Shown: positions 21,245 to 22,804 of the stretch, piece by piece
Layout of the letters: each line of letters begins with the position of its first letter
Position numbering within the stretch: the stretch's first letter is position 1
Assembly: GCA_030065715.1 (NCBI GenBank)
Contig: JASJDF010000006.1
Coordinates: 1 to 33,523, forward strand
Source: Xenococcaceae cyanobacterium MO_188.B19
Lineage (GTDB): Bacteria > Cyanobacteriota > Cyanobacteriia > Cyanobacteriales > Xenococcaceae
Reading direction: 5' to 3'
Length of the DNA stretch: 33,523 bases
The notes under the pieces: generated by a model
What the model saw: only the letters and a program-made list of their open reading frames with translations
Databases searched by the model: none
Told to the model about the DNA's origin: nothing
Translations under genes and position numbers: made by a program

Positions 21245-22267
21245 ATGAACACAGAATTATCAAATCAAGTTTTAGATTCAAATAAAGATTCATTATCAGG
21301 AAATCCCATCAACATTTTAGAGACCGAAGTTAGTAGTGTATCTCTGAGTGTTGATAGCTTGACAGGATTGCCTGGGGACACAGTCACAGTCCCCATATTG
21401 ATTAGCGATGGAGCAGGTGTTGTTTCATTAAATTTACTTTTAAAGTATGATCCCAATGTTCTGAGTATCCCCGACCCCGATACTAATACTGATGAGAATG
21501 AAAGAATTAGAAGAGCAGGCATTAGTGAAACTTGGGTTTCATCTGAAGGAAGCAACCCCACAGCTAACGTTAATTCAGAAACGGGAGAAGTCAATATTAG
21601 TTTGTTCAAAACTGATACCGCAGCAAATCCAACCTCTGATAGAGTCCTGGAAATAGATTTTCTAATTTCTGATGATGCAACACTAGATTCCACTACTAGT
21701 ATTGATTTACAATCGTCTCAAGGGGATAGTACTTCTCGTATTGGAATTGGTAGTCAAGATTTACTTCTCACTGATAGTGTTTTGAGTGATGGTGATATTA
21801 CTTTCGGACAATCAACAGTATTAGATACTCAAATAAATCGGTTTCAAAATAAAGATCGTCCTGGTACGTTTTTATTTGCCAATGAGGGAGAAAGCGTAAC
21901 TATTCGTAGGGACTTTCCTAACTTTGATGAAGAAGGACCAGCATTTAAAGTATCACAGGAAGCAGCAGATGGTTTAATACGCTTGAATCGGTTTCAGAAT
22001 GAGAATGTACCTGGTACTTATCTTTTCGCAACTGAGGGAGAAAGCGTAAATATTCGTAGGGACTTTCCCAACTTTAAAGAAGAAGGGGTCGCCTTTTATG
22101 TTTATGGTGCTGATGCCAACAAAGGGGTAGATTATTTCCGCTTCCAAAGCAACAATAACCCTGGTACTTATGTTTTTGTTAATCAAATAGAAAGAGATAG
22201 TATTCTTGCTAATTTCCCTAATGACTTTACCTTAGAAGGAGTTGCTTTTGAAGTTGAACCAATATGA
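21245..22267 (+). CDS. Cohesin-domain protein with three 50-residue C-terminal repeats
   Basis: 340 residues. Residues about 31-190 resemble a cohesin-type beta-sandwich (VSLSVDSLTGLPGDTVTVPI, then GAGVVSLNLLLKYDPNVLSI, GEVNISLFKTD, RVLEIDFLISDDA). The C-terminal 145 residues are three repeats with exact 50-residue spacing: RFQNKDRPGTFLF from 199, RFQNENVPGTYLF from 249, RFQSNNNPGTYVF from 299, each followed by an E-rich stretch and an FPNF...EG.AF end, similar to DUF5648-type repeats. Repeats 1 and 2 are nearly identical at DNA level too (21885-21940 and 22033-22088), suggesting recent duplication. There is no N-terminal signal peptide; acidic, Cys-free composition fits type I secretion, which is inference. 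No dockerin partner is in the window. Confidence 0.75.
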   Translation: MNTELSNQVLDSNKDSLSGNPINILETEVSSVSLSVDSLTGLPGDTVTVPILISDGAGVVSLNLLLKYDPNVLSIPDPDTNTDENERIRRAGISETWVSSEGSNPTANVNSETGEVNISLFKTDTAANPTSDRVLEIDFLISDDATLDSTTSIDLQSSQGDSTSRIGIGSQDLLLTDSVLSDGDITFGQSTVLDTQINRFQNKDRPGTFLFANEGESVTIRRDFPNFDEEGPAFKVSQEAADGLIRLNRFQNENVPGTYLFATEGESVNIRRDFPNFKEEGVAFYVYGADANKGVDYFRFQSNNNPGTYVFVNQIERDSILANFPNDFTLEGVAFEVEPI

Positions 22268-22464: not shown

Positions 22465-22470
22465 TATAAT
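22465..22470 (+). promoter_or_regulatory. Probable -10 box of the glutamine-riboswitch transcript
   Basis: A perfect TATAAT 22 bases before the aptamer; initiation about 7 bases downstream would start the RNA just ahead of the P1 strand. No good -35 hexamer is seen at the right spacing. The rest of the 22268-22464 stretch shows no gene. Confidence 0.5.
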
Positions 22471-22491
22471 GTTTTAATATAAATATTACTA

Positions 22492-22565
22492 ATCGTTCAT
22501 CTTTACATAATCACAATTGTGCAGAGACGGAAGTAGGTTTTTAGCAAACCGAAGGAACGCACCGC
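22492..22565 (+). promoter_or_regulatory. Glutamine riboswitch (glnA-type aptamer)
   Basis: The conserved core of cyanobacterial glnA RNA is present in order: ATCGTTCATC (22492-22501), GACGGAAGTAGG (about 22526-22537), a GGTTT/AAACC hairpin, and CCGAAGGAACGCACC to about 22563. P1 forms between CGTTC (22494-22498) and GAACG (22555-22559). The P2-side hairpin includes CACAATTGTG. This class binds L-glutamine and controls nitrogen-assimilation genes or, as the related downstream-peptide motif, short ORFs. Here it lies 30 bp before the ATG of a 70-codon gene, with the ribosome site (AGAGGA, about 22579) just behind it. Confidence 0.88.
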
Positions 22566-22591
22566 ATCCAAATTTGAAAGAGGATTAAACG

Positions 22592-22804
22592 ATGCTTGTG
22601 CTTTCTTTATGCTTTTTAGGAGTAGTAGCGATCGCAATTTACCTTAGTAGTAAAATTGAAGACGAAGTGTTTAAAGTCGGTATGCTCATCACCGCTTTAG
22701 CCTTCTCTCTGGTTGTTTTAATCTGTGCACCTTGGACAATCAAACTAATGGTGGCAGCTATTAGTGCCTTGGGAAGTATCTCTATAGAAGATTTGCCCTT
22801 CTAG
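22592..22804 (+). CDS. Small two-span membrane protein under glutamine-riboswitch control
   Basis: 70 residues with two membrane helices (LVLSLCFLGVVAIAIYLSSK and GMLITALAFSLVVLICAPWT) separated by an acidic turn KIEDEVFK, and a tail SISIEDLPF. The start is fixed by AGAGGA upstream and by the riboswitch ending 27 bases before it. Not recognised by name. The glutamine aptamer predicts that expression follows nitrogen status, so a role in nitrogen assimilation or in its regulation is a reasonable inference. The protein has no catalytic motif and may modulate a larger membrane partner. Confidence 0.75.
   Translation: MLVLSLCFLGVVAIAIYLSSKIEDEVFKVGMLITALAFSLVVLICAPWTIKLMVAAISALGSISIEDLPF

Follow-up and report, generated by a model that had tools for sequence, protein, structure and literature searches.

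The closest described system is the type-1 glutamine riboswitch of Synechocystis gifB, the gene for IF17 (Klahn et al. 2018, via PMC6316151), which activates expression on glutamine (PMC6316151). Aptamers of this class are associated chiefly with DUF4278 genes (PMC6316151), and a 2010 paper names PII, GS, glutamate synthase and ammonium transporters as targets (PMC2864571). The type-2 glutamine riboswitch (downstream-peptide, RF01704) of marine picocyanobacteria also senses glutamine, controls short proteins and activates expression on glutamine (PMC11288750). In Limnospira indica PCC 8005 there is a second glutamine riboswitch for which no target is named (PMC8400943). IF7 (gifA) and IF17 are small proteins under glutamine riboswitches, in the genome considered here and in others; both are soluble and bind glutamine synthetase.

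The locus described here shares with Synechocystis gifB the aptamer class, a similar spacing to a small-protein gene and, as we propose, the translational control expected there, ON at high glutamine. It differs in its target, which is a membrane protein without DUF4278. It is also distinct from the type-2 switch, which belongs to a different Rfam family; a scan of the window at gathering threshold gave no RF01704 match. The novelty lies in the target family, here named A1, and in the predicted expression platform, not in the aptamer. A1 is not among the targets given in PMC6316151 or PMC2864571, although it may have been noticed earlier in Klahn 2018.

The riboswitch and its genomic context

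The locus lies in a stretch of 33,523 nucleotides, the window, from Xenococcaceae cyanobacterium MO_188.B19, whose nearest named relatives are the Xenococcaceae metagenome-assembled genomes MO_167 and MO_234. The features are as follows.

22465-22470, forward strand: probable -10 box TATAAT, read from the sequence; transcription start expected near 22477
22492-22563, forward strand: type-1 glutamine riboswitch aptamer (RF01739), Rfam full-length match
22494-22498, forward strand: P1 5' strand, CGTTC, from the Rfam alignment
22555-22559, forward strand: P1 3' strand, GAACG, also used by the predicted alternative OFF helix, from the Rfam alignment and the fold
22580-22583, forward strand: Shine-Dalgarno-like GAGG, 8 nt 5' of the ATG, read from the sequence
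22592-22804, forward strand: 70-residue two-helix membrane protein of the A1 family, from the ORF, profile, AlphaFold2 and dN/dS analyses

The original prediction, that a glutamine riboswitch with all conserved core segments is present, is borne out by a match to RF01739 over the full length of the model (positions 1-53) with 57.5 bits and E 2.4e-10, against a curated cut-off of 35 bits. This is the sole glutamine riboswitch that Rfam finds in the window, and a whole-genome search recovered the same aptamer. The Rfam alignment confirms the predicted P1 pairing of CGTTC with GAACG. The model ends 28 nt from the ATG at 22592, close to the 27 or so bases claimed, and on the same strand, in the leader of a small-protein gene. 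We regard the aptamer as virtually certain to be real. By covariance-model score and leader position the locus is a member of the type-1 class, and its binding of glutamine is predicted. Two further glutamine riboswitches occur in the same genome, each 5' of a DUF4278 (gifB-type) gene, and two congeners also have the arrangement of aptamer and membrane gene.

The region starts at 22465 with the first base of the TATAAT box. The box was not in the output of a consensus promoter scan and we infer it from the sequence; the leaders of relatives, for example L180, L178/L193, L195 and L199, conserve both TATAAT and the TTAATA stretch after it. Many relatives carry GAGG or GAGGT at the place equivalent to the Shine-Dalgarno-like element. 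No NtcA box (GTAN8TAC) lies near the leader, and the number of such boxes in the window is at chance level. Operon context was considered and set aside, as no neighbouring gene is conserved across the A1 family. The next gene downstream, encoding Psb35 (photosystem II assembly, NF047378, 22906-23121), follows the A1 gene only within the genus. The gene immediately before the riboswitch, at 21245-22267, encodes a 340-residue protein that has DUF5648 and a cohesin-like domain, and elsewhere in the window the end of a group II intron is found (2260-2336, RF00029, 58.6 bits).

The A1 membrane protein

The product has the sequence MLVLSLCFLGVVAIAIYLSSKIEDEVFKVGMLITALAFSLVVLICAPWTIKLMVAAISALGSISIEDLPF and no relative in Pfam, NCBIfam or the PDB, in keeping with its earlier description as an unnamed two-helix protein. 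Weak matches to DUF1290 and HisM/CpoB fall far below the cut-offs and probably represent chance hydrophobic similarity. A phage origin was also rejected, since no family member has a phage homologue. The AlphaFold2 model, from an alignment of 11 sequences, predicts helices at residues 2-21 and 25-61 with modest confidence (pLDDT 71.7, pTM 0.40). The peak 19-residue hydropathy is 2.53, compared with -0.41 to 0.19 in eight IF7-like products, and we assign the product to the membrane with high confidence. Values of dN/dS against same-genus copies are approximately 0.10-0.16, indicating a real gene under purifying selection.

Profile searches over 386 and 391 genomes place the protein in the A1 family, whose motifs MLxxSL, TxEEVxKV and APWxxKL it matches. 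The family sequences form a hydrophobic hairpin with many small residues. There is no Pfam match above cut-off to DUF4278 (PF14105), the YRG-repeat domain, and no QxSML-type motif of IF7. The proposal that the target is no glutamine synthetase and no soluble inactivating factor stands, and the hairpin sets the protein apart from both IF7 and IF17.

A1 has a distant homologue in a sister branch that carries APWQIQ (hhalign 95.3%, score 42.6; the column-permuted controls reached a maximum score of 14.5 and 1.6%). In at least 22 loci read, from many genomes, the sister domain and a DUF4278 region of three repeats form one fusion protein, with PF14105 matches at E 2.5e-10 and 5.9e-11. These fusions of the Cyanobacteriales (L030, L032, L222 and others) share the homologous membrane domain and the APW motif with A1 but carry a C-terminal DUF4278 region that is absent from the 70-residue protein. 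The fusion links the membrane domain with the domain found in IF17. Two examples were checked for a riboswitch (L030 and L032) and none was detectable nearby.

Recurrence of the riboswitch-gene pairing

Is the pairing an accident of one contig? Approximately 120 glutamine riboswitch matches were obtained from 386 cyanobacterial genomes, and targets were tallied for the 114 with downstream DNA read. DUF4278 (gifB-type) genes account for 62 of the 114 and the A1 family for 19. IF7-like genes follow 8 riboswitches; four more (L058, L060, L061 and L070) were tallied as other, giving about 12. A single-helix LCWxLP peptide is encoded at four loci, and the remainder are other short ORFs. The 19 A1-paired riboswitches are spread over nine families of one order, and further loci add two, giving at least eleven families. 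Assuming one such gene per approximately 4,500 genes per genome, we estimate that chance would place about 0.03 A1 genes downstream of the 114 riboswitches, against the 19 observed. The distance from aptamer end to start codon is 27 to 57 nt in nearly all A1 pairs, similar to that for DUF4278 genes. The A1 profile matches in 291 of 391 genomes of the order, a count that includes the sister branch. The pairing is a recurrent second target class of glutamine riboswitches, not an accident of one contig. The second riboswitch of Limnospira indica PCC 8005 may be of this kind.

Other small targets were seen in the survey. Four loci (L056, L085, L100 and L124) encode riboswitch-controlled membrane peptides of 43-53 residues with one helix and a conserved LCWxL(P), a second class of membrane peptide. 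Soluble peptides of 59-64 residues sharing an FxFxLWA motif follow riboswitches at L063, L081, L094, L095 and L118, and proteins of 78-94 residues with a common QWQxYxxLELxP start do so at L066, L069 and L078. At L099 (G170:C2:1066000-1067600) three riboswitch-DUF4278 units stand in tandem in approximately 700 bases.

A predicted start-codon switch

In the minimum-energy fold of 22477-22621 the P1 3' strand and the tail that follows form a helix with the start of the coding sequence. Its two arms are listed below.

22551-22568, forward strand: predicted left arm of the OFF helix, aptamer 3' end and tail, GAAGGAACGCACCGCATC, from the minimum-energy fold and duplex energy
22591-22608, forward strand: predicted right arm of the OFF helix, start codon and first codons, GATGCTTGTGCTTTCTTT, from the fold, the duplex and the recoding control

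This helix and P1 are mutually exclusive. The duplex has an energy of -18.0 kcal/mol, with a z score of -3.1 against shuffled sequences. Similar pairing of the start codon is seen at L179, L180, L108, L184, L186, L188 and others; in about half of the family leaders the helix is not clearly present. A synonymous-recoding control addressed whether the protein sequence alone forces the pairing. Only 0.8% of recodings pair as well in the window, 0.4% at L180 and 0.2% at L186, with 5-40% at other loci, and we caution that these loci are related and not independent.

The unliganded fold lies 9 kcal/mol below the fold in which P1 is enforced. Glutamine binding could not supply that much energy at equilibrium, so switching would have to be under kinetic control or be helped by tertiary contacts outside the model. 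Enforcing P1 raises the accessibility of the AUG only slightly in the window, from 0.00 to 0.14, and more at L180, from 0.00 to 0.69; the family mean rises from 0.31 to 0.43. The region from -14 to +3 as a whole shows no mean opening upon P1 formation; only the AUG itself opens on average. At DUF4278 loci GCGCCUC pairs with a GGAGGCG Shine-Dalgarno sequence, whereas the OFF helix predicted in the window covers the start codon and first codons instead. A translational ON switch is likely. The direction, ON at high glutamine, is suggested by a strong analogy with gifB, by the published behaviour of the type-2 switch and by the fold.

Retention of the gene in reduced genomes

Six small, single-contig genomes of N2-fixing organisms keep the A1 gene. 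Four of them measure 2.5-3.1 Mb, as diatom spheroid bodies do, and keep both riboswitch and gene, and in one of the reduced genomes (G147) the only glutamine riboswitch found is that 5' of the A1 gene. The remaining two (1.44 and 1.49 Mb) match UCYN-A in size; they keep the gene and no riboswitch was detected. We infer these identities, as spheroid bodies and UCYN-A, from size and kinship. Within each endosymbiont-size group dN/dS is 0.06-0.19, indicative of purifying selection. No DUF4278 protein was detected in any of the six. Each has one NIR_SIR protein, of sulfite-reductase size, with a second present in a free-living relative, and none of the six has NirA-type nitrite reductase. The four spheroid-body-size genomes have Amt; it was not detected in the two of UCYN-A size. 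Since genomes without them keep the gene, the partner of A1 need not be DUF4278, nitrite reductase or Amt.

Possible roles of the A1 protein

We consider it fairly likely that the riboswitch controls translation of a small membrane effector, a regulatory partner of a membrane complex at nitrogen surplus. At low glutamine the P1 3' strand and tail would base-pair across the start codon and the codons next to it, and little protein would be made. At high glutamine, signalling nitrogen surplus, the ligand would stabilize P1, release the start codon and allow synthesis of the protein, which would insert in the membrane as a helical hairpin. There it would partner a membrane complex as a small regulator that adjusts nitrogen and energy flow under nitrogen surplus, the membrane-bound equivalent of the soluble factors that inactivate glutamine synthetase and are under the same riboswitch class. 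Taken separately, the last step, action as a partner of a complex, is tentative and on balance doubtful. The identity of the molecular partner is a guess, with GS, GifB, Amt, NDH-1 and ATP synthase as candidates, and no neighbouring gene is conserved that would name it.

One alternative is that the protein anchors or partners DUF4278 proteins of the GifB/IF17 type, so taking glutamine synthetase inactivation to the membrane. The fusions of the sister domain to three-repeat DUF4278, and the control of both by one riboswitch class, point this way. We nevertheless judge it unlikely, because the four pair-bearing genomes of endosymbiont size and the two of UCYN-A size, all without a detected DUF4278 protein, imply that the family works without one.

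Riboswitch-exporter pairs exist, such as guanidine with SugE and fluoride with CrcB, and the protein could be an efflux valve or channel releasing surplus glutamine or another small nitrogen compound. Predicted ON control by an accumulating metabolite would suit such a role, as would a hairpin rich in small residues and the retention of the gene in reduced N2-fixing genomes of endosymbiont size. Against it, each chain has two short helices, conserved polar residues are all but absent from the membrane part, there is no transporter homology, and many free-living species have the gene; we consider this role improbable.

Inhibition of nitrogen uptake or reduction, for example of Amt or nitrite reductase, would fit a protein made at nitrogen surplus, and Amt is available in the spheroid-body-size genomes. 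The UCYN-A-size genomes keep the gene without Amt, and a single NIR_SIR protein of sulfite-reductase size in all six reduced genomes argues against the reductase; we give this reading little credence.

The leader has decayed in some lineages. A degraded aptamer, or no recognizable one, stands before a retained gene at G508/L178, L195, L199 and L201, in G143 and in the UCYN-A-size genomes; the G508/L193 leader, at 34.8 bits, is just below the cut-off. That the gene outlives the switch implies that some lineages benefit from the protein without glutamine control and can dispense with the switch. The degraded aptamers 5' of A1 at L178/L193, L195, L199, L201 and L007 may be relics or altered-ligand variants. 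Synechocystis-like genomes have the gene but no riboswitch before it. In two of these genomes a Cyano-1 RNA (RF01701; L022 1050-1128 and L023 1047-1125) lies approximately 370-450 nt upstream of the membrane gene. That the riboswitch in the window is itself a relic without regulatory function, as decay in related leaders might suggest, is very improbable, given an intact aptamer with a full conserved core far above cut-off, its retention by two other members of the genus and start-codon pairing better than synonymous chance.

Implications

An unannotated, conserved membrane family can be named as a predicted direct target of glutamine sensing, which offers an immediate handle on its function. 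The start-codon-hiding platform represents a testable variant of a known switch. A more speculative thought, to which we attach a low probability, is that A1 constitutes a second, membrane-based arm of glutamine-riboswitch control, apart from glutamine synthetase inactivation, and of such importance that one reduced N2-fixing genome, as small as those of diatom endosymbionts, reserves its sole detected switch for it; the protein there may determine how fixed nitrogen is released or partitioned. Because the gene persists in N2-fixing genomes reduced to endosymbiont size, the family bears on the handling of fixed nitrogen in such organisms, and a membrane target this widespread broadens the view of how cyanobacteria respond to high glutamine.
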